Positions 1,053-57,272 of a stretch of 64,000 bases of DNA are shown here, one piece after another. The position numbers were made by a program, and so were the translations under genes. Each line of letters starts with the position of its first letter. Within the stretch, counting starts at the first letter, position 1. This stretch comes from Actinacidiphila rubida (lineage in GTDB: Bacteria > Actinomycetota > Actinomycetes > Streptomycetales > Streptomycetaceae), in NCBI RefSeq assembly GCF_900110255.1, contig NZ_FODD01000009.1, forward strand, positions 1 through 64,000, written 5' to 3'. The notes under the pieces are model-generated. The model was not told the DNA's origin. It saw only the letters and a list, made by a program, of their open reading frames with translations, and made no database searches.

Positions 1053-3548
1053 ATGAAGGCAGTAGTGATGGCCGGCGGCGAAGGGACCCGCCTTCGCCCG
1101 ATGACCTCAAGCATGCCCAAGCCCCTGCTGCCTGTGGTTAATCGCCCGATTATGCAGCATGTGCTGACACTGCTCAAGCGGCATGGACTCACTGAGACGG
1201 TGGTCACAGTCCAGTTCCTCGCCTCCCTGGTGAAGAATTATTTCGGGGACGGCGAGGACTTCGGAATGGAGCTCACCTACGCCAACGAGGAAAAGCCGCT
1301 GGGGACGGCCGGAAGTGTCAAGAACGCCGAAGAGGCGTTGAAGGACGAAGCGTTCCTCGTGATCTCCGGTGACGCGCTCACCGATTTCGACCTGAGTGAT
1401 CTGATCGCTTTCCACAAGGCCAAGGGCGCGCTCGTCACCGTCTGCCTGACCCGGGTGCCGAACCCTCTGGAGTTCGGCATCACGATCGTCGACGACGAGG
1501 GCAAGGTCGAGCGTTTCCTGGAGAAGCCGACCTGGGGCCAGGTCTTCTCCGACACGGTGAACACGGGCATCTACGTCATGGAGCCCGAGGTCTTCAACTA
1601 CGTCGAGCCCGATGTGCCCGTCGACTGGTCGGGGGACGTCTTCCCGCAGTTGATGAAGGAGGGCAAGCCCATCTACGGCTATGTCGCCGAGGGCTACTGG
1701 GAGGACGTCGGTACCCACGAGAGCTATGTGAAGGCCCAGGCCGACGTCCTCGAGGGCAAGGTGGACGTCGACATCGACGGGTTCGAGATCTCGCCCGGCG
1801 TGTGGGTCGCGGAAGGCGCCGACGTCCACCCGGACGCGGTGCTGCGCGGCCCCCTGTACATCGGCGACTACGCCAAGGTCGAGTCCGGGGCGGAGATCCG
1901 CGAACACAGCGTCATCGGGTCCAACGTGGTCGTGAAGTCCGGTGCGTTCCTGCACAAGGCCGTCATCGCCGACAACGTCTACGTGGGCCCGCAGACCAAC
2001 CTGCGCGGCTGCGTGATCGGCAAGAACACTGACGTGATGCGGGCCGCGCGGATCGACGAGGGCGCGGTCATCGGCGACGAGTGCCTGATCGGCGAGGAAT
2101 CGATCATCTCGGGCAACGTCCGGGTGTACCCGTTCAAGACCGTCGAGGCCGGCGCGTTCGTCAACACGTCGGTCATCTGGGAGTCCCGCGGCCAGGAGCA
2201 CCTGTTCGGCGCCCGCGGCGTGACCGGCATCCTCAACGTGGAGATCACGCCGGAGCTCGCGGTGCGGCTGGCGGGTGCGTACGCCACCACTCTCAAGAAG
2301 GGCGCGACCGTCACCACGGCCCGCGACCACTCCCGCGGTGCCCGTGCCCTCAAGCGCGCCGTGATCTCGGCGCTGCAGACGAGTGCCATCGAGGTCCGCG
2401 ACCTGGAGAACGTGCCGATGCCGGTGGCCCGGCAGCAGACCGCGCGCGGCAGCGCCGGCGGCATCATGATCAGGACGACGCCCGGACGCCCGGACTCGCT
2501 CGACATCATGTTCTTCGACGAGCGGGGCGCCGACCTGTCCGCGGCCGGCCAGCGCAAGCTGGACCGCGTCTTCGCGCGCCAGGAGTACCGCAGGGCGTTC
2601 CCCGGCGAGATCGGCGACCTGCGGTTCCCCGCCACGGTCTTCGACTCGTACACCGGCGCCCTCCTGCGGGCCGTCGACATCTCGGGCATCGCCGACTCCG
2701 GGCTGAAGGTGGTCGTGGACGCGGCCAACGGCAGTGCCGGCCTGGTGCTGCCCAGCCTGCTCGGCCGGCTCGGCGTCGACGCGCTGACCGTCAATCCCGG
2801 CCTGGACGAGGCGCGGCCGACCGAGACCGAGGAGAGCCGCAGGGCCGGCCTGGTGCGGCTCGGGGAGATGGTCTCCTCGGCGCGTGCCGCTTTCGGTGTG
2901 CGCTTCGACCCGGTCGGCGAGCGGATGTCCCTCGTGGACGAGCTGGGCCGGATCGTCGAGGACGACCGGGCGCTGCTGGTGCTGCTCGACCTGGTGGCCG
3001 CGGAGCGGCGCAGCGGGCGCGTGGCGCTGCCGGTGACCACCACCCGCATCGCCGAGCAGGTCGGGGCCTACCACGGCACCCAGGTGGCCTGGACGACGAC
3101 GTCCATGGACGACCTGACGCGTGTCGGCCGCGAGGAGGGCACGATCTTCGGCGGCGACGCCCGCGGCGGCTTCATCATCCCGGAGTTCAGCAGCGTCTTC
3201 GACGGCTCGGCCGCGTTCGTGCGGCTGATCGGCCTGGTCGCCAGGACGCAGCTGACGCTCAGCCAGATCGACGCCCGGATCCCGCGGGCGCACGTCCTCA
3301 AGCGGGACGTGCCGACGCCGTGGGCGGTGAAGGGCTCGGTGATGCGCCGGGTCGTCGAGCAGGCCGGGGAGCGGTCCGTGGACACCACGGACGGCGTGCG
3401 CGTGGTGGAGTCCGACGGGCGCTGGGTCATGGTGCTGCCCGACCCCGCGGAGGCCGTCACGCACCTGTGGGCCGAGGGCCCGGACGACGAGTCGGCACAG
3501 GCCCTCCTGGAGGAGTGGGCGCAGGTCGTGGAGGGTGCCGGCCGCTGA
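1053..3548 (+). CDS. Mannose-1-phosphate guanylyltransferase-like protein fused to a degenerate phosphomannomutase domain
   Basis: 831 residues in three parts. Residues 1-~235 are a nucleotidyltransferase with GGEGTRLRP at 8-16 and a following PKP, the NTP-binding signature for making NDP-sugars (GDP-mannose likely). Residues ~250-380 are left-handed beta-helix hexapeptide repeats. Residues ~390-831 match the alpha-D-phosphohexomutase fold. The mutase active-site loops are altered: RTTPGRPD near 470-478 stands where TASHNP should carry the phosphoserine, FDPVGER near 617-623 replaces the Mg-binding DGDGDR, and GGDARGG near 698-705 replaces GExSGH. The C-terminal part is therefore probably non-catalytic. 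The ATG has a GAGGAGG ribosome-binding site at 1036-1042. GDP-mannose feeds mannosylated lipids and protein O-mannosylation. Confidence 0.85.
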
Positions 3549-10967: not shown

Positions 10968-11218
10968 TAGGCTGGTGAACGGCTGCAGACCCCTTGCGGG
11001 AGAGCTTCCGGATCGTGCCGTCATGGGCGTCGCGGGAGCGCCGAAGGAGCAACCCCTCCCCGGAATCTCTCAGGCACCCGTACCGCATGGACGAGGTCAC
11101 TCTGGAAAGCAGGGCACGCCTCGGGAGCGACGCAGCCTCCGGGACACGGTCCTCACCGACGGTGAAAGCCGCCCCTCACCGGGCGGTGAAGCTCTCAGGT
11201 CCGATGACAGAGGGGGAG
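10968..11218 (+). promoter_or_regulatory. Promoter -10 and tandem glycine riboswitch of gcvP
   Basis: A TAGGCT -10 box at 10968-10973 is followed from about 10994 by two consecutive glycine-aptamer-like modules. The first has GCGGGAGAGC, GCCGAAGGAGCAA and CTCTCAGGCACCCGTACCGCATGGACG (in pieces); the second, from ~11110, has GACGGTGAAAGCCG, GGGCGGTGAAGCTCTCAGGT and ATGACAGAGGGGGA. These are the conserved cores of the glycine riboswitch, which usually activates glycine cleavage genes, and gcvP starts 60 bp later. Exact aptamer boundaries are approximate. Confidence 0.92.
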
Positions 11219-11281
11219 GCCGTACGGGTGTTCGCTCCGCAGCACCCCCGAAGGTCGTCGCAGACCAGGAGGCCTCCTCAC

Positions 11282-50533: not shown

Positions 50534-50563
50534 TTGACCGGTTTCGGCGCCACCGGCTACGTT
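50534..50563 (+). promoter_or_regulatory. Promoter of the first leader peptide
   Basis: TTGACC (50534-50539) and TACGTT (50558-50563) are 18 bp apart, and the leader ORF's ATG (50571) comes 7 nt after the -10, so the transcript would start at or next to the ATG. The same arrangement recurs at 52089-52118. Confidence 0.6.
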
Positions 50564-50570
50564 GCGCGGC

Positions 50571-50651
50571 ATGCAGCGCACCACACATCTGACGACGCGG
50601 GGTCACGTCGACCTCAAGCGCGTGTGCTCCGCTGCGTGTCACCGGTTCTGA
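50571..50651 (+). CDS. Putative leader peptide (leaderless, 26 residues)
   Basis: An open frame of 26 codons starting MQRTTHLTTRGHVDLKRV and containing two cysteine codons near its end belongs to the short 'putative leader peptide' family annotated in many Streptomyces genomes upstream of sulfur-related genes. It begins 7 nt after a -10 box, implying leaderless translation. An inverted repeat CGGGAGC/GCTCCCG (50679-50685 and 50730-50736) lies between it and the ROK gene. Regulatory role inferred. Confidence 0.7.
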   Translation: MQRTTHLTTRGHVDLKRVCSAACHRF

Positions 50652-50763
50652 GCGCACCGCTCCGCACAGGAGCGCCCCCGGGAGCGCCCGCCCGCCGCCT
50701 GCCGTGTCGCCGGCGGCCGGCCGTCCGCGGCTCCCGTCCGCCCGGACCCGGAAGGCATCCGCC

Positions 50764-52035
50764 GTGACACCGTTCCCCGACCGTCCGCACCGCCCCGCCT
50801 CCCCGACTCCGCTGCGCCGGGCCGACGTCGTACCCCCGCAGGGGCCGCGCCGCTCCTCGGCCGCCGGCGCGGTGCTCGGCGCGATCCTCGACCACGGCCC
50901 GGTGGCCCGCAGCACCGTGGCCCGCCTCACGGGCCTGTCGCCGTCCGCGGTGACCGGCCACAGCGCCCGGCTGGTCGCGCGCGGCCTCGTGCGCGAGCGG
51001 CCCGAGACCGCGGGGCCGCGCGGACTCGGGCGCCCGCACGTCCCGTTGGAGATCGACACCGGCGGCCACCTGGTCGCCGGCCTGCACATCGCCGTCGCGC
51101 ACTCCACGGTGGCGCTCATGGACCTGCGCGGCACGATCGTCGCCGAGGACCGGCGGCCGCACCACCGCCCGGCGCCCCGCGACGTGCTCGACGGCGTCCC
51201 CGCCCGGCTGTCCGCGCTCGCCGCCGCGCACGCCGCGGGCCGCACGGTGCTCGCCCTGGGCGCTGCCACCGGCTCGTGGGTGGACCCGGAGGCGGGCGTG
51301 ATCGTCGACCATCCGTGGCTCGGCTGGCGCGACGTGCCCGTGCGCGATCGGCTCGCCAGGACGACGGGACTGCCGGTGCACGTCGACAGCCACTCGCGCG
51401 CCCTGGCCCGCGCCGAGCAGCTGATCGGCGCGGTCGCCGCCCGGGACAGCAGCGTCCTGCTCTTCGTCGGAGCCGTGGTCGACGCCGCGTTCGCCACGGC
51501 GGGCGCGGTGCACCGCGGGCCGCGCTCCGCCGCCGGCAGCGTCGCCCACCTGCCGCTCGCCGACGGCGAGGAGGCGGGCGACGGGCCGGCCGAGCCCTGT
51601 CGCTGCGGCACTCCGCGCTGCCTCCAGTCCGAGGTGTCGGAACCGTCCCTGCTGCGCCAGGCCGCGGCGCGCGGTCTGCGGGTCGCGGACTTCCCGGACC
51701 TGCTCGGCCTCGCCCGGGCCGGCGACCGCACCGCGGTGGCGCTGTTCCGGCGCCGGGCCCGGCTGGTCGGGCGGGTCGCCGCCCTGCTGCTGGACATGTT
51801 CGACCCCGAGGTGCTGGTGGTGGTCGAGCCCGGCACCGGCGCGCTGCCCGAGTGCCTGGCCGACCTGCGGGCCGAGGTCGGCGCGCGCTCCTGGGTGTGC
51901 GACGACCCCGAGCGGGCCGTGGTGCCCAGCAGCTTCACCGGTTCCGTGCTGTCCGTCGCGGGCTGCGCCGTGGCCCTCGGCGCCCTCTACGCCGACCCGC
52001 TCGGCCCGTGGTCCGCGCTGCCCGCGGTGTCCTGA
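50764..52035 (+). CDS. ROK-family transcriptional regulator
   Basis: 423 residues from the GTG at 50764 (GGAAGG 50750-50755). A winged-helix N terminus (GAVLGAILDHGPVARSTVARLTGLSPSAVTGHSARLVARGLV, in part) precedes a ROK domain. The zinc-binding motif is CRCGTPRCLQ rather than CxCGxxGCxE. ROK regulators sense sugars, but this subgroup is often found with sulfonate-uptake genes. It is downstream of the first leader peptide and upstream of the flavin reductase/ABC/monooxygenase cluster, so control of organosulfur use is inferred. Confidence 0.82.
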   Translation: MTPFPDRPHRPASPTPLRRADVVPPQGPRRSSAAGAVLGAILDHGPVARSTVARLTGLSPSAVTGHSARLVARGLVRERPETAGPRGLGRPHVPLEIDTGGHLVAGLHIAVAHSTVALMDLRGTIVAEDRRPHHRPAPRDVLDGVPARLSALAAAHAAGRTVLALGAATGSWVDPEAGVIVDHPWLGWRDVPVRDRLARTTGLPVHVDSHSRALARAEQLIGAVAARDSSVLLFVGAVVDAAFATAGAVHRGPRSAAGSVAHLPLADGEEAGDGPAEPCRCGTPRCLQSEVSEPSLLRQAAARGLRVADFPDLLGLARAGDRTAVALFRRRARLVGRVAALLLDMFDPEVLVVVEPGTGALPECLADLRAEVGARSWVCDDPERAVVPSSFTGSVLSVAGCAVALGALYADPLGPWSALPAVS

Positions 52036-52088
52036 CGGCGTGTGAGCGGGACCACGGGAAAGCCCCTTTAATTCAGCGAGTTGCATTG

Positions 52089-52118
52089 TTGACCGCGTTC
52101 CGCCGGCGACAGGACAAT
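52089..52118 (+). promoter_or_regulatory. Promoter of the poly-cysteine leader
   Basis: TTGACC (52089-52094) and GACAAT (52113-52118) are 18 bp apart, with the ATG at 52125 6 nt after the -10. It has the same TTGACC-18 spacing as the first leader promoter (50534). The -10 is a weak consensus match, so the assignment rests on the repeat of the arrangement. Confidence 0.55.
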
Positions 52119-52124
52119 GGGACC

Positions 52125-52307
52125 ATGACCAGCGAGCAGCGAATTCAGGGACGCCGGACCGCACCGGTGCGTTCCCGCCGCACCGCCGCGGGTCCGGTGG
52201 CCGCGGCCGTCCGGCGCCGCTGTTGTCGCCGCTGCTGCGAGTGTCGGGACCACAGCCTCCGTCGTGCTTGTCGCACGGCTCTGCCGGAAGCCGCCCGCCG
52301 CGCCTGA
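52125..52307 (+). CDS. Leaderless cysteine-rich leader ORF (60 residues)
   Basis: An open frame of 60 codons from the ATG at 52125. Cysteine codons occur at 33, 34, 37, 38, 40 and 49; five of them lie within codons 33-40 (segment RRCCRRCCEC). It has no good ribosome-binding site but begins 6 nt after a -10-like box, implying leaderless translation. It is followed by competing hairpins and then the flavin-reductase gene. Poly-cysteine leader ORFs controlling sulfur operons are known in mycobacteria; a cysteine-sensing role here is inferred. Confidence 0.65.
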   Translation: MTSEQRIQGRRTAPVRSRRTAAGPVAAAVRRRCCRRCCECRDHSLRRACRTALPEAARRA

Positions 52308-52321
52308 ACTGCGCTTTCGCT

Positions 52322-52396
52322 CAGGCTCAGATGACCGGTCGGCCTGACCGGCCGGCTTGTCGGGTGAGCCTGTCGGGCCGGTCTGTCGGGCCGGTC
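52322..52396 (+). promoter_or_regulatory. Candidate attenuator with competing hairpins and a tandem 13-bp repeat
   Basis: CAGGCTCA (52322-52329) pairs with TGAGCCTG (52365-52372) around an inner hairpin CCGGTC (52335-52340)/GACCGG (52346-52351). Immediately downstream, the 13-mer TGTCGGGCCGGTC is directly repeated (52371-52383, 52384-52396); both copies contain GGCCGGTC, complementary to GACCGGCC (52346-52353). The central segment can therefore pair upstream or downstream, as expected of an attenuation switch. The rest of 52397-52555 shows nothing clear. Confidence 0.55.
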
Positions 52397-52555
52397 CGGC
52401 GCCGCGGTTCGTGCCGGCCTCGTGCCGTCGCCATCGGCCGTACTCCTTACCGCAATTCGCGTCGCCACCGAACTCCCCGGTTCCGCACGCCATTTCGCGA
52501 TGTCACGCTCCCATGCCCGCATTCCGCCATGCCCATTTCTCTGTACCAGGGGGAG

Positions 52556-53071
52556 ATGTTGTCCGTCGCCTTGTCCTCGCTTCCCACGCCGGGTATCGAC
52601 CCGGAGCGCTTCAAAGAGATGTTCCGCAACCACCCGGCCGGGGTCGTGGTCGTCACCCTCGACGCCGGCCGCGGGCCCGCCGGATTCACCGCGACCTCGC
52701 TCACTTCGCTGTCCCTGACCCCTCCGCTGGTGTCCTTCGGCATCGCCGTCACCGCCTCGTCGTGGCCGCACGTCGAGCGCGCCGGCAGTGCGGTGGTCAA
52801 CTTCCTGGGCGCCCAGCAGGAGGACGTGGCACGCCGGTTCGCGACCAGCGGCATCGACCGGTTCGCCGCACCCACCCGATGGCGCCGCCTCCCCGAGGGC
52901 GAGCCCGTGCTCGACGGTGTCAGCGGCTGGCTGCGCCTCGGCCTCGACCAGGTCGTCCCGGCCGGCGACCACCGCATCGTCGTCGGCCGGGTCGAGGACT
53001 CCTGGCTCGGCACGGACCGCAGCCCGCTGCTGTTCCACGACGGCGCCTACCACTCCCTCACCTCCCGCTGA
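52556..53071 (+). CDS. Flavin reductase (flavin-dependent monooxygenase partner)
   Basis: 171 residues from the ATG at 52556 (AGGGGGAG just before it; ATG 52529 is also in frame). The flavin reductase-like domain has FKEMFRNHPAGVVVVTLDAGRGPAGFTATSLTSLSLTPPLVSFGIA and VVNFLGAQQEDVARRFAT (shortened), with the typical GFTATS motif. It supplies reduced FMN from NAD(P)H, most likely to the LLM monooxygenase at the end of this cluster, like SsuE with SsuD. It is the first gene after the poly-cysteine leader. Confidence 0.88.
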   Translation: MLSVALSSLPTPGIDPERFKEMFRNHPAGVVVVTLDAGRGPAGFTATSLTSLSLTPPLVSFGIAVTASSWPHVERAGSAVVNFLGAQQEDVARRFATSGIDRFAAPTRWRRLPEGEPVLDGVSGWLRLGLDQVVPAGDHRIVVGRVEDSWLGTDRSPLLFHDGAYHSLTSR

Positions 53072-53106: not shown

Positions 53107-54213
53107 ATGCCCACCAGCACTCCGCCCGTACCCGCGTCCCCCGTGCCGTCCCCCGTCTCCGCCTCCCCGGCGCCCTGGGCCCGCCGCTCCTTCCTCGCCC
53201 TCGCCACGGGCGCGGCCCTGGCCGCCGCCGGCTGCGCCCGCACCACGACCGCCGCGGACGCCGCCCTGCCCACCCGCGCCCTGCCGTCCGGGGCCCCACC
53301 GCCCGGCACCCGGCTCTCCATCGCCGTGCACACCTCCCAACTGCAGCTGGCGGACTCCGGCCTGGACGCGAAACTGCCGTTCACCGTGTCCGGCTGGCCC
53401 AACCTCAGTGCGGGCCCCGACGTGATCCAGGGCTTCCGGGCCCACTCGGTGGACCTGGCGAACAACGCCGGGATCCCGCCGATCCAGGCCCAGGCCATCG
53501 GCGTGGGCGCCCGCATCGTCGCGGTGCAGTCCCGCAACCACCCCCTCTACACGTTCGCCACGGCGCCCGGCACCGACATCGCCCGCGCCGAGGACTTCCG
53601 CGGGAAGAAGATCGCCTTCTCGCAGGGGCAGGCGCAGGGTGTGGTGGTGCTGCGGGCCCTGAAGGAGGCCGGGTTGCGCACCTCCGACGTGAAGCTCGTC
53701 GCGCTGCCCAGCACCCAGTTCCTCACCGCGCTCCAGGCGCGCCAGGTCGACGTCGCGCCGCTGGCCGAGCCCGTCCTCACCAAGTACCTGACGCAGTACG
53801 GCAAGGACGGCGCCCGCGGGGTGCACACCGACGTGGTGGACCTGCTGTCGATCCTCTGGGCGCCGGTCGAGGTGCTGGAGGACGACGCCAAGGCCGCCGC
53901 GATCAGGAGCTTCGTCCCGCTGTGGGCGCAGGGCGTGGTCTGGGCGTGGGAGCACGCCGACGCCTGGATCCAGGCCTACTACGTCAAGGACCAGGGTGTC
54001 AGCGCCGACGACGGGCGGCGCATCACGGCCTCGCTCGACCAGCCCCAGTTCCCGCTGTCCTGGGACCGGGCCATCGCCTGGGAGCAGCAGACCGCGGACC
54101 TCCTGGCCGAGGGCGGGTTCGTGCCGAAGGTGAAGGCCGAGGCGCTGTTCGACCGGCGGTTCGAGGGGCTCGCGGCGCGGTCCGTCCCGCAGAAGTACCG
54201 GGTGGCGTCATGA
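53107..54213 (+). CDS. ABC transporter substrate-binding lipoprotein (SsuA-like)
   Basis: 368 residues from the ATG at 53107. The signal has twin arginines (WARRSFLALATGAALAAAGC) and a lipobox, so it is a Tat- or Sec-exported lipoprotein at the cell surface. The NMT1/SsuA-type periplasmic domain has VQSRNHPLYTFATAPGTDI, DFRGKKIAFSQGQAQGVVVLRAL and LTALQARQVDVAPLAEPV (in part). Ligand probably a sulfonate or other organosulfur compound, inferred from the neighbouring flavin reductase and FMN monooxygenase. Permease gene overlaps by 4 bp (ATGA). Confidence 0.88.
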   Translation: MPTSTPPVPASPVPSPVSASPAPWARRSFLALATGAALAAAGCARTTTAADAALPTRALPSGAPPPGTRLSIAVHTSQLQLADSGLDAKLPFTVSGWPNLSAGPDVIQGFRAHSVDLANNAGIPPIQAQAIGVGARIVAVQSRNHPLYTFATAPGTDIARAEDFRGKKIAFSQGQAQGVVVLRALKEAGLRTSDVKLVALPSTQFLTALQARQVDVAPLAEPVLTKYLTQYGKDGARGVHTDVVDLLSILWAPVEVLEDDAKAAAIRSFVPLWAQGVVWAWEHADAWIQAYYVKDQGVSADDGRRITASLDQPQFPLSWDRAIAWEQQTADLLAEGGFVPKVKAEALFDRRFEGLAARSVPQKYRVAS

Positions 54214-55019
54214 CCGAGGCGCTGTCCCGCCCGCGCGGCACCCGTCGCCGGCTCGGCCCCGGCCGCGCCGTGCCGTTCGGGCGGCTGCTCGGGCCCCTCC
54301 TCCTGGTGGCGGTCTGGTGGGCCGCCTCCGCGCTGCACTACCTCGACCCGCGGATCCTCACCGGCCCCGGTTCCGTGGCGGCCACGGCCGCCGACCTCGT
54401 CCGCGACGGACGGCTCCAGGACAATGTGCTCATCTCGCTGCAACGGGCCGGGCTGGGGCTGCTGTTCGGCGTCCTCGCCGGGGTGGTGCTGGCGGTCGCC
54501 GCCGGCCTCAGCCGCTTCGGCGAGTACCTCGTCGACGGAACCCTGCAGGTCAAGCGGGCGATCCCGTCGCTGGCGATGCTGCCGCTGCTCATCCTCTGGC
54601 TCGGCATCGGCGAGCAGATGAAGGTCACCGTGATCGCCCTGGGCGTCGCGGTCAGCGTGTACGTCAACACCTACGCCTCCCTGACCGGCATCGACAGCCG
54701 GTACGTGGAGCTGGCCGAGAGCCTGGATCTGAGCCGGTGGCGGTTCGTGCGCACGGTGGTGGTGCCGGGGTCGCTGCCCGGCTTCTTCGTCGGCCTGCGG
54801 CTCGGCGTGACCGCGTCCTGGCTCGGCCTGATCGTGGTGGAGCAGATCAACTCCACCAGCGGGATCGGCTACATGATGTTCCAGGCACAGCAGTACGCCC
54901 AGTCCGACGTGATCATCGTCGGCCTGGTCGCCTACGGGATCTTCGGATTCGCCTCCGACGCGGCGGTCCGGGCGGTCGAGAGGAGAGTGCTGTCATGGCG
55001 CCGTACGCTGGCGGGCTGA
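54210..55019 (+). CDS. ABC transporter permease (SsuC-like)
   Basis: 269 residues from the ATG at 54210, overlapping the substrate-binding gene (ATGA). About six membrane helices and the permease EAA-type loop near ESLDLSRWRFVRTVVVPGSLPGFFVGLRLG (in part). Homologous to the SsuC/TauC permeases for sulfonates and taurine. Its 3' end overlaps the ATPase gene by 25 bp. Confidence 0.9.
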   Translation: MTEALSRPRGTRRRLGPGRAVPFGRLLGPLLLVAVWWAASALHYLDPRILTGPGSVAATAADLVRDGRLQDNVLISLQRAGLGLLFGVLAGVVLAVAAGLSRFGEYLVDGTLQVKRAIPSLAMLPLLILWLGIGEQMKVTVIALGVAVSVYVNTYASLTGIDSRYVELAESLDLSRWRFVRTVVVPGSLPGFFVGLRLGVTASWLGLIVVEQINSTSGIGYMMFQAQQYAQSDVIIVGLVAYGIFGFASDAAVRAVERRVLSWRRTLAG

Positions 55020-55903
55020 CCGCGAGCAGGGACGTCCCGGTCCACGACGCGCCCGCCACCGCCGCGGCCGCACCGCCCGCGGTGCGCACCACCGGCCTGG
55101 TCCGCTCCTTCGGCGGCCGCGACGTGCTCAGGGGACTCGATCTGACCCTGGCGCGGGGCGAGTTCACCGTGCTGCTGGGCCGCAGCGGCTCCGGGAAGTC
55201 CACGCTGCTGCGGGCCGTCGCCCGCCTCGACCACGGCGTGGCAGGCTCCGGCGGCCTGGCCGTTCCCGACCGGGTGTCCCTGTCGTTCCAGGACTCGCGG
55301 CTCCTGCCGTGGCTGCGGATCCTCGACAACGTGGTGCTCGGCATCCGCGGCCCGGGGGCACGCGAGCGCGGCGCCACGGCCCTGGCCGAAGTGGGGCTGG
55401 CCGGCCGGGAGCGGTCCTGGCCGCACGAGCTGTCCGGCGGCGAGCAGCAGCGCGCCGCACTGGCCCGGGCCCTGGTGCGGGATCCCGAACTGCTGCTCGC
55501 GGACGAGCCGTTCGGCGCCCTCGACGCACTGACCCGGATCAAGATGCACGGTCTGCTGAGGGAGTTGTACGAGCGGCACCGGCCGGCCGTGCTGCTCGTC
55601 ACCCACGACGTGGACGAGGCGGTCGAACTCGCCGACCGGGTACTGGTCCTGGAGGACGGCCGGATCGCCGTGGACCTGGCCGTCCGCCTGCCCGTCCGCC
55701 GAAGCCGCCGCGACCCGCGGTTCCAGGAGTACCGCGACACGCTGCTGGCCGCCCTCGGCGTCACCGAACCCGGCGACCGGCCGCACGTCCACGGCGGGCC
55801 GACCGAGCACGCCGCGCCGCCGCCGTACGGCGACCCCGTCCACCCGCCGCAGCCGACCGACCGCCCCGACGAGGAGAAGGACAGCCATGACCCGCGGGAC
55901 TGA
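54995..55903 (+). CDS. ABC transporter ATP-binding protein (SsuB-like)
   Basis: 302 residues from the ATG at 54995 (GAGGAGAG upstream). Walker A GRSGSGKST, signature LSGGEQQR, Walker B LLLADEP and the H-loop THDVDE are complete. SsuB/TauB group. The last ~45 residues are an acidic/proline-rich tail (HVHGGPTEHAAPPPYGDPVH). It overlaps the permease upstream by 25 bp and the monooxygenase downstream by 17 bp, so the importer and enzyme are translated as one unit. Confidence 0.92.
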   Translation: MAPYAGGLTASRDVPVHDAPATAAAAPPAVRTTGLVRSFGGRDVLRGLDLTLARGEFTVLLGRSGSGKSTLLRAVARLDHGVAGSGGLAVPDRVSLSFQDSRLLPWLRILDNVVLGIRGPGARERGATALAEVGLAGRERSWPHELSGGEQQRAALARALVRDPELLLADEPFGALDALTRIKMHGLLRELYERHRPAVLLVTHDVDEAVELADRVLVLEDGRIAVDLAVRLPVRRSRRDPRFQEYRDTLLAALGVTEPGDRPHVHGGPTEHAAPPPYGDPVHPPQPTDRPDEEKDSHDPRD

Positions 55904-57272
55904 CCGCAAGCACCTGCACCTGAACGCGTTCCTGATGTCCGTCGGGCACCACGAGGCCGCGTGGCGGCTGCCGGAGAGCCCCGCGTCCGGCGGCACCGAC
56001 CTCGCCCACTACACCCGCCTCGCCCGCATCGCCGAACGCGGGCTGCTGGACTCGCTGTTCCTCGCGGACAGTCCCGTGCTGATGGGCGACCCGGGACGCC
56101 GCCCCGGCAGCAAGCTCGAACCCACCGTGCTGCTCACCGCGCTGGCCGCGGTGACCCGCCGGATCGGCCTCATCGCCACCGCGTCCACCAGCTACAACGA
56201 GCCCTACAACCTGGCGCGCAGGTTCGCCTCGGTCGACCACGTCTCCGGCGGGCGGGCCGGCTGGAACATCGTCACGACCGCGGGCGCCGACGCGGCCCGC
56301 AACTTCGGCCTGGACGACACGCCGCTGCACCACGACCGCTACCTGCGGGCCGCGGAGTTCGTGGACGTGGCGACGAAGCTGTGGGACAGCTGGGCGGACG
56401 ACGCGGTGCTCGGCGACAAGGACCTCGGAGTGCACGCCCGCGCCGAACGGGTGCGCAGGATCGACCACAAGGGCGCGTACTTCCGGGTCGACGGACCGCT
56501 GAACGTCGAACGGTCCCCGCAGGGCTACCCGTTGCTGGTGCAGGCCGGGTCCAGCGAGGACGGCAGGGACTTCGCCGCCCGGTACGCGGAGGCGGTGTTC
56601 ACCGCCCAGCAGACCCTCGACGACGGCATCGCCTTCTACCAGGACGTCAAGCGGCGGGCCGCGGCCGCCGGCCGCGACCCCGAGGGCATCAGGATCCTGC
56701 CGGGCATCGTGCCCGTCATCGGCGACACGGAGGCCGAGGCCCGCGCGCTCGACGAGGAACTCGACCGGCTGATCCGGCCCGAGTACGCCAAGCTCCAGCT
56801 CGCCAGGACCCTTCGGGTGCATCCCGACGCGCTCGGCCTGGACGAGGAACTGCCCGACGACCTGCCCACCGAGGACGAGATCGAGGGCGCCAAGAGCCGC
56901 TACACGCTCATCGTCGACCTCGCCCGGCGGGAGCGGCTGACGGTCCGCCGCCTCATCGGCCGGCTCGGCGGCGGCCGCGGCCACCGCACCTTCGCCGGCA
57001 CCGCCGAGCAGGTCGCCGACACCATCCAGCACTGGCACGAGGCGGGCGCCGCCGACGGGTTCAACATCATGCCCGCGGTCCTGCCCTCCGGGCTCGAACT
57101 GTTCGTGGACCGGGTGGTGCCCCTGCTCCAGGAACGCGACCTGTTCAGGACCGAGTACACCGGGACGACGCTGCGGGAGCACTACGGGCTGCCACGCCCC
57201 GCCAACCGCCTCTTCGAGCCCGTCGACACCGGCGACGGCCATCTCGGCATCGCGCTGGCGGGCGCCCGGTGA
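55887..57272 (+). CDS. FMN-dependent monooxygenase (NtaA/SnaA/DszA-type LLM oxidoreductase)
   Basis: 461 residues from the ATG at 55887, overlapping the ATPase gene by 17 bp. Bacterial-luciferase-like TIM barrel of the NtaA/SnaA/DszA group: HLNAFLMSVGHHEAAWRLPESP, RRIGLIATASTSYNEPYNLARRFASVDHVSGGRAGWNIVTTAG and SPQGYPLLVQAGSSEDGRDFAARYAEAVFT (in part). Uses reduced FMN from the flavin reductase of the cluster plus O2, probably to release sulfite from an imported organosulfur compound. Substrate unproven. A strong hairpin at 57296 terminates the operon. Confidence 0.9.
   Translation: MTRGTDRKHLHLNAFLMSVGHHEAAWRLPESPASGGTDLAHYTRLARIAERGLLDSLFLADSPVLMGDPGRRPGSKLEPTVLLTALAAVTRRIGLIATASTSYNEPYNLARRFASVDHVSGGRAGWNIVTTAGADAARNFGLDDTPLHHDRYLRAAEFVDVATKLWDSWADDAVLGDKDLGVHARAERVRRIDHKGAYFRVDGPLNVERSPQGYPLLVQAGSSEDGRDFAARYAEAVFTAQQTLDDGIAFYQDVKRRAAAAGRDPEGIRILPGIVPVIGDTEAEARALDEELDRLIRPEYAKLQLARTLRVHPDALGLDEELPDDLPTEDEIEGAKSRYTLIVDLARRERLTVRRLIGRLGGGRGHRTFAGTAEQVADTIQHWHEAGAADGFNIMPAVLPSGLELFVDRVVPLLQERDLFRTEYTGTTLREHYGLPRPANRLFEPVDTGDGHLGIALAGAR

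Follow-up and report, generated by a model that had tools for sequence, protein, structure and literature searches.

The leader ORF and its operon

The question raised by this locus is why a short ORF crowded with cysteine codons should stand ahead of an operon that appears suited to scavenging sulfur. The ORF occupies 52125-52307 (+ strand) of the window, by which we mean the whole 64-kb stretch of DNA (64,000 nucleotides) that was analysed. Its translation bears out what had been claimed from the letters alone, giving 60 codons with Cys at residues 33, 34, 37, 38, 40 and 49. The Cys run itself, read from the codon listing, covers leader codons 33-40 (TGT TGT CGC CGC TGC TGC GAG TGT, 52221-52244, +). 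At the Cys frequency of 0.7% found in 34 window ORFs picked by length and codon GC, six Cys in 59 leader codons has P = 4e-6, a value not corrected for the large number of ORFs that 64 kb contain. The promoter that the sequence-only reading had proposed, a TTGACC-18 arrangement with a -10-like box 6 nt before the ORF, is likewise recovered by a promoter scan (52089-52118, +): the -35 element TTGACC (52089-52094) and the -10 element GACAAT (52113-52118) are separated by a spacer of 18, and 6 nt lie between the -10 box and the leader ATG at 52125. It is the single promoter-like site in 52030-52620, where shuffled sequences give a mean of 0.0 (sd 0.1). Profile searches with Pfam, NCBIfam and Rfam give no match for the window leader ORF. 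The leader region is also free of Rfam matches at the gathering threshold in a search of the whole 64-kb window, in which 5S rRNA, 23S rRNA and two glycine aptamers are matched. Tandem glycine riboswitch aptamers (Rfam RF00504) lie at 10987-11220 (+).

The genes behind the leader, all on the + strand, are those that had been claimed. A flavin reductase (Flavin_Reduct, Pfam PF01613, E 3.1e-37; 52559-53071, with a TTG start assigned by comparison) follows the Shine-Dalgarno (SD) sequence GGGGGAG at 52549-52555, for which relatives have GGGGGAGACG-TTG or related motifs. Then comes an SsuABC-like importer, whose three components score below the curated cut-offs: a solute-binding protein like SsuA (53107-54213; TIGR01728, E 4.1e-26), a permease like SsuC (54210-55019; PF00528, best NCBIfam match SsuC, E 5.7e-53) and an ABC ATPase of the sulfonate type (54995-55903; PF00005, best NCBIfam match the aliphatic sulfonates ATPase, E 1.6e-68). 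The FMN-dependent monooxygenase (55887-57272) is placed firmly in the NtaA/DmoA family by TIGR03860 (551.8 bits, cut-off 279.7). Upstream of the leader, at 50704-52035 (+), is a ROK-family regulator gene of uncertain start codon (Pfam ROK, E 2.7e-27, with a MarR_2 HTH).

A conserved box and its leaders

When the region 52040-52560 is compared by blastn with 61 genomes, several matches start at 52068 and so reveal a near-invariant 27-nt box, TTAATTCAnnnAGTTGCATTGTTGACC (52068-52094, +), whose 3' end is the -35 hexamer and which is a candidate ROK operator. Pattern searches find the box in 13 of the 35 genomes of the genus (at most two mismatches) and in 25 of 391 genomes of an order sample (at most three); the box pattern read backwards, used as a control, has no matches in either search. 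Fourteen of 15 genus sites show no mismatch across the 24 fixed positions of the box, and the exact AATTCAnnnnGTTGCATTGTTGAC occurs on 48 contigs of a species collection, named Streptomyces, Actinacidiphila or Peterkaempfera. Counting identical sequences once and including the window, the loci collected contain 64 distinct box sites, some of them closely related.

At 63 of these 64 sites an ATG follows at a set distance, 57 nt (57 sites) or 56 nt (6 sites) past the box start. This geometry puts the start codon at the expected sigma-70-type transcript start, from which leaderless transcripts are predicted. A Cys-containing leader is present at 61 of the 64 sites, namely 56 complete leaders together with L002, L034, L045, L068 and L051, the last of which shows one Cys before its sequence ends inside the leader. 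By tblastn a flavin reductase lies downstream of 58. The six others are L002 and L045, to which we return below, L051 and L068, for which the available sequence ends too soon, L095, with a decayed box and no leader, and L034. At L034 (genome G013) the box and Cys leader are followed by an ABC-exporter-like gene (identified by reading) with no flavin reductase, an apparent rearrangement. The ROK gene is found 5' of the box in 59 of the 63 other loci; a match is missing at L002, L045, L095 and L052, the last having only 196 nt of upstream sequence. By sequence, then, 52125-52307 belongs to a Streptomycetaceae family of Cys leaders of the leaderless type, with which the downstream operon and the upstream ROK regulator are largely conserved.

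The next question is "does the Cys run persist in relatives that have the same operon?" This had been set as a test beforehand, and 56 of the 58 sites with a reductase downstream have a leader with at least two Cys. The remaining two, L076 and L093, have lost the leader: the conserved ATG opens a frame that runs into the flavin reductase and contains no Cys, and the operon is kept. Among the 56 complete leaders the length varies from 18 to 74 aa and the number of Cys from 2 to 7. The peptides drift in length and sequence and the Cys codons persist. The N-terminus is fairly conserved, often M[TSN][SG]xQR[NI], and a comparison of the family peptides makes no fixed Cys spacing apparent.

The Cys codons are specific to the leader frame, with 205 among 2197 codons (9.3%, vs 0.7% in the 34 window ORFs) and 64 and 41 in the other two frames. 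TGT/TGC triplets make up 3.5-4.2% of the post-stop spacer in every frame, so that the local background of Cys triplets is above zero. The choice of codon is distinctive as well, UGU:UGC being 159:46 in the leaders (UGU 78%) against 8:89 in the window ORFs (8%). The last Cys lies at most 7 codons from the stop in 52 of the 56 leaders, and 41 contain two Cys spaced 0-2 residues apart. In comparisons of leaders that share at least 84% identity, 32 of 44 indels have a length divisible by three, compared with 16 of 92 just past the stop; the corresponding figures are 47/75 vs 25/119 at 80% identity and 16/22 vs 7/45 at 88%. This test is partly conditioned on the definition of the ORF by its start and stop, and is to be read as a direction and not as a probability. 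Since the leader sequences are related, p-values overstate their independence.

RNA structure and the spacer

We turn to the region between the leader stop and the SD, which in the window is a C-rich, G-poor spacer (52308-52543, +; C 0.392, G 0.291, a C-G difference of about +0.10). Across 56 loci the difference averages +0.173, and for 16 control spacers taken from the window it is -0.001 (p = 3e-9); the pyrimidine content is raised as well. A single genome supplies the controls, and the 56 spacers share ancestry. The reductase gene of the family is also richer in C than in G (0.411 vs 0.316) and thus shares part of the skew, which makes the spacer compatible with Rho but no proof of it. The distance from stop to gene ranges from 113 to 409 nt across the family. 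A scan of the window alone over 52030-52620 returns no terminator-like site, the G+C-rich stem with a U run behind it that a classical attenuator with an intrinsic terminator would have.

Competing hairpins had been proposed for this region. Strong hairpins are indeed predicted in its 5' part; their role as a switch is not supported, the whole fold surpassing shuffles by little (z -1.52, with 6 of 100 as good) and no terminator-like site being found. According to the folding, the reductase SD is mostly paired, to the same extent as in dinucleotide shuffles (unpaired 0.166 vs 0.169, 54 loci, p = 0.40), and the mean energy z of the spacer region against such shuffles is -0.93. When the leader is masked in silico, partition-function folding of 55 loci leaves the SD closed, its openness changing from 0.163 to 0.171 or 0.178. 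SD-leader pairing averages 0.18 in these 55 loci, the partners of the SD not lying consistently in the leader, and exceeds 0.6 in eight of them. In six of the eight (L048, L054, L059, L069, L071 and L114), whose leaders are similar, the SD pairs just 5' of the last Cys codons (0.69-0.98); in L055 (0.80) and L085 (0.78) it pairs with other stretches of the leader. The pyrimidine tract before the SD keeps its complementarity mainly through C/U changes. Masking of the SD as a common switch is unsupported across the family by the folding, with and without a modelled ribosome, and by the shuffles.

A covariation search over the leader ends and the SD region (34/36 sequences after near-duplicates were dropped) yields only one hairpin, P1, that is both highly paired and rich in two-sided changes. 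The remaining high-ranking helices were set aside as mostly one-sided, G-U or less well paired. P1 is a 5-bp hairpin of leader nt 31-35/42-46, with 88.7% of its cells paired in 53 distinct rows. Shuffles give 12.5 two-sided changed cells where P1 has 37, and a score of 0.242 where the covariation of P1 reaches 0.397; for pairing, two-sided cells and covariation score alike none of 500 shuffles is as high; the number of its pairs with a two-sided change and the further pair types are matched by 83 and 43 of the 500. None of the slid versions of P1 approaches it in cells paired. Most relatives have the hairpin within their leader ORF; in the window it is broken in the aligned register, and the palindrome CGCACCGGTGCG (52160-52171, +), shifted by about one codon, is a possible counterpart. 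We read P1 as RNA and not as a DNA dyad because there are G-U pairs among its cells, an argument that is not decisive. Our guess is that P1 serves as a pause hairpin that couples polymerase and ribosome.

Loci that differ from the window

Searches for flavin-reductase orthologues of at least 61% identity give 17 in the genus and 16 in the order sample, with the window in both sets; five of the 17 and one of the 16 are box-less. A further orthologue, that of genome G277 (L102/L156), has the box and has lost the leader. The short flanks of the six box-less loci, searched with the operon proteins, give no ROK match. In two of them, L131 and L159, the monooxygenase adjoins the reductase, and in genome G033 (L183), one of the six, the operon is re-ordered and runs solute-binding protein, permease, ATPase, reductase, monooxygenase.

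The G033 operon is headed by an unrelated ORF, MRSIRHLGEQARCACLGAMRCSRRCRLISC, of 30 codons with 5 Cys, which starts 6 nt past a -10-like TAGGGT and lies on the operon strand 396 nt before the match to the solute-binding protein. The strict promoter pattern is unmatched ahead of this ORF, and the -35 element would be TTGTCG. Since it was chosen among the most Cys-rich ORFs in 700 nt, it is suggestive only. The sequence TTAATTC is seen upstream of it. The other five box-less loci, G319 among them, have no comparable Cys ORF within 600-700 nt upstream of the reductase.

In the genome of the window itself the box recurs once, on contig C39 (L002, box at 3190-3216, - strand). The leader ORF there has 42 codons with 2 Cys, and the gene behind it is nearest to alkanesulfonate monooxygenase, below the curated cut-off. 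At L045/L175 a box and a Cys leader precede a gene that looks similar to this alkanesulfonate-monooxygenase-like gene of L002/L174. From their sequences, we read L002/L174 and L045/L175 as a second member of the regulon.

A second Cys leader ahead of the ROK gene

The ROK gene is itself preceded by a Cys leader, MQRTTHLTTRGHVDLKRVCSAACHRF (50571-50651, +), found by a pattern search and by its likeness to NCBIfam NF042934 (22.4 bits, cut-off 27). Read from the sequence, its promoter-like site (50534-50563, +) has TTGACC at 50534-50539, a spacer of 18 and TACGTT at 50558-50563; the ATG lies 7 nt past TACGTT, a layout shared by most of the relatives compared. Sub-threshold matches to NF042934 occur in 6 of 14 control genomes as well, so the score of 22.4 bits means little and conservation is the argument for this second leader. 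Of the 29 loci whose upstream sequence is long enough, the window among them, 28 have it, and in L072 it was not found. The search patterns favour the conserved core by construction; the peptides are alike beyond the core too.

The leader of the ROK gene, HVDLKRVCSAAC, differs in kind from the Cys leader of the operon, so that a Cys leader of one class stands before the regulator and one of another class before the structural operon. Its peptide, LTTRGHVDLKRVCSAAC, is placed for leaderless translation and is highly conserved and nearly fixed in relatives, which on the two-tier reading given below suggests that the peptide sequence matters; the 32 copies collected have a UGU:UGC ratio of 32:33. 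The operon leader drifts except for its Cys codons, mostly the rare UGU, which on that reading suggests a pure codon sensor.

Proposed mechanism and alternatives

Combining these observations, we propose for 52125-52307 the role of a cysteine attenuator, a leaderless upstream ORF placed before a sulfur-scavenging operon, a reading to which we give a probability of about 0.75. The transcript start, the translation, the response to cysteine, the pairing of the ROK regulator with the box and the step from stalling to expression are parts of it that we infer. RNA polymerase would start at or very near the A of the leader ATG, and a 70S ribosome would load there and translate the leader. With plentiful cysteinyl-tRNA the ribosome would run through the Cys codons, for the family chiefly the rare UGU that is decoded by wobble, and would leave at the stop. 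The spacer of about 110-410 nt would then be unprotected and expression of the operon would be cut, with Rho-type termination and masked reductase SD as the likeliest means. In cysteine shortage the ribosome would stall in the Cys run near the leader end and the cut would be prevented, so that flavin reductase, importer and monooxygenase would be made and sulfur would be freed from organosulfur compounds. In favour of this reading count the set distance from box to ATG, the frame-bound Cys codons with their UGU bias, the tendency of indels to keep the frame, the conserved gene order, the two leader losses, the box site on contig C39, the Cys ORF of G033, the spacer composition and the mycobacterial precedent. 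Against it stand an SD pairing at the level of shuffles, which masking of the leader leaves in place, the lack of a terminator-like site in the window, the Cys triplets of the spacer, the loss of register of P1 in the window and the box-less orthologues.

Could the ORF instead encode a functional Cys-rich small protein, metal- or redox-binding, which acts in trans and is placed here by ordinary co-transcription? The leader frame is kept and the N-terminus is fairly conserved, as such a protein would have it. A length that varies from 18 to 74 aa, 2-7 Cys with no fixed spacing apparent, and forms of 18 aa such as MTIRQRIPRHVPCPCCRA, which could hardly fold, are not what one expects of it; the UGU bias is a feature of decoding and not of a protein, and two loci without the leader retain the operon. 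We consider this explanation very unlikely. Only slightly less improbable is that the promoter box at 52068-52094, under ROK control, is all that matters and that the ORF arises incidentally from a leaderless ATG and GC-rich DNA. The box is the most conserved element of the locus, and the ATG would come free with it. In the window, however, the Cys run begins 127 nt beyond the box, and a promoter needs neither Cys codons confined to one frame (205 vs 64 and 41) nor a UGU bias nor indels that keep the frame.

Within the attenuator reading there is the choice of how expression is cut. Rho-dependent transcriptional attenuation in the C-rich spacer is a possibility that we put somewhat short of even odds: the C-G difference of +0.173 and the raised pyrimidine content of the 56 spacers against the 16 window controls point to it, as does the lack of a terminator-like site in the window, and it was suggested for mycobacterial cys leaders on similar grounds in a report whose excerpt calls its own prediction weak (PMC1262725). 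The variable length of the spacer, 113-409 nt, the origin of the controls in one genome, the relatedness of the spacers and the skew shared by the reductase gene weaken the argument, and it is not obvious how a ribosome held up in the leader could block Rho along a long downstream spacer. A stall in the Cys run would leave most of the spacer bare, and simple masking of rut is therefore no full explanation. Translational attenuation, in which the reductase SD is masked until a stalled ribosome unmasks it, seems to us rather doubtful, at perhaps a one-in-three sort of chance. It is the mode reported for mycobacteria in the excerpt of PMC13236596, and the pairing of the SD with the leader in the six similar leaders and in L055 and L085, together with the complementarity that the pre-SD pyrimidine tract keeps mainly by C/U changes, speaks for it; the mean leader pairing of 0.18 without a stall effect in 55 loci, and an SD pairing equal to that of shuffles, speak against it.

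The attenuator may also be one of two tiers. The ROK gene and the operon would each be gated by cysteine through its own leaderless Cys leader, the two leaders being of unrelated kinds, and P1, inside the operon leader in most relatives, would pause RNA polymerase in step with the leaderless 70S ribosome. This extension is tentative, and we would not quite bet on it. In the main proposal, the ROK regulator, CysR/SsuR-like by analogy, probably acts on the box upstream of the leader; the first half of the box, read in reverse, resembles the Corynebacterium glutamicum CysR/SsuR half-site, given as TGAAtnnAAt in the excerpt of PMC2580772.

The locus had been described as a streptomycete counterpart that couples sulfonate use to cysteine supply. 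The conservation of the leader with the operon supports the counterpart; as to the substrate, "organosulfur" is safer than "sulfonate". If the proposal is true, cysteine attenuation by leaderless ORFs reaches beyond mycobacteria into Streptomycetaceae, a family of antibiotic producers, and takes in organosulfur scavenging. The leaders of 18-74 codons, the two leader losses, the second box-and-leader site, the Cys ORF of G033 and the leader of the ROK gene form a natural test set, with which one could test directly how terminator-less actinobacterial Cys leaders work. The UGU bias gives a specific prediction on sensing at the level of codons, and one that can be checked.

Comparison with known systems

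Among the matches listed in a literature search, judged by title and the start of the abstract, no paper describes this streptomycete leader family. An entry in NCBIfam, NF042934 (cis_reg_atten, "putative leader peptide", of the HVDLxR..SAxC type), covers small leaders that precede several flavin-reductase paralogues. Distant reductase paralogues, of about 50% identity, include several with HVDLxR-type leaders, one of which when scanned scores 28.2 bits with NF042934, and the leader before the window operon's own ROK gene resembles this type at a sub-threshold score. The two poly-Cys leaders scanned, those of the window and L047, have no NF042934 match above 27 bits; they lack the HVDLxR core and their sequence drifts.

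Genes for sulfur and sulphonate use are controlled in C. glutamicum by the ROK-type regulators CysR and SsuR, whose half-site resembles reverse-read TTAATTCA; the cysR and ssuR transcripts are leaderless, and the excerpt of the report mentions no Cys leader (PMC2580772). The likeness of the regulators is drawn by analogy. For Streptomyces lividans, the excerpt of a survey lists eight leader peptides and calls none of them a Cys leader (PMC8079986). One of them, "metL" (MSTTSDRTPATEATTTPGARCMCRRMCAF) before metNIQ, is leaderless and carries three Cys codons towards its end; it is a leader which the authors assign to Met (and Thr) in that excerpt (PMC8079986). The operon is a different one and the likeness lies in the anatomy; the metL leader might be a cysteine sensor.

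Cys leaders without terminators were described by Seliverstov et al. 2005 (PMC1262725), whose excerpt lists Mycobacterium cys, Propionibacterium acnes cys and Bifidobacterium longum cbs. Like the present family, these have Cys runs near the stop, no conserved terminator hairpin and a possible role for Rho; the operons differ, and no Streptomyces Cys leader is reported in that excerpt. The nearest known system is that of the mycobacterial poly-Cys leaderless small ORFs, proposed in the excerpt of PMC4633059, which we take to be Shell et al. 2015. Cysteine-responsive attenuation by such mycobacterial leaders is due to Canestrari et al. 2020, as cited elsewhere, and the excerpt of a 2026 paper calls the mode translational (PMC13236596). 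The Streptomycetaceae leaders share with the mycobacterial ones the start placed for leaderless translation, the short ORF, Cys clustered near the end and the position before sulfur genes. Unlike them, they precede an operon of flavin reductase, SsuABC and NtaA-DmoA, accompanied by a ROK regulator and the near-invariant box. They further show the UGU bias, P1 in most relatives and a stop-to-gene distance of 113-409 nt, UGU and P1 being described here for Streptomycetaceae. By analogy of anatomy, the leader family would work as the mycobacterial poly-Cys leaders do.
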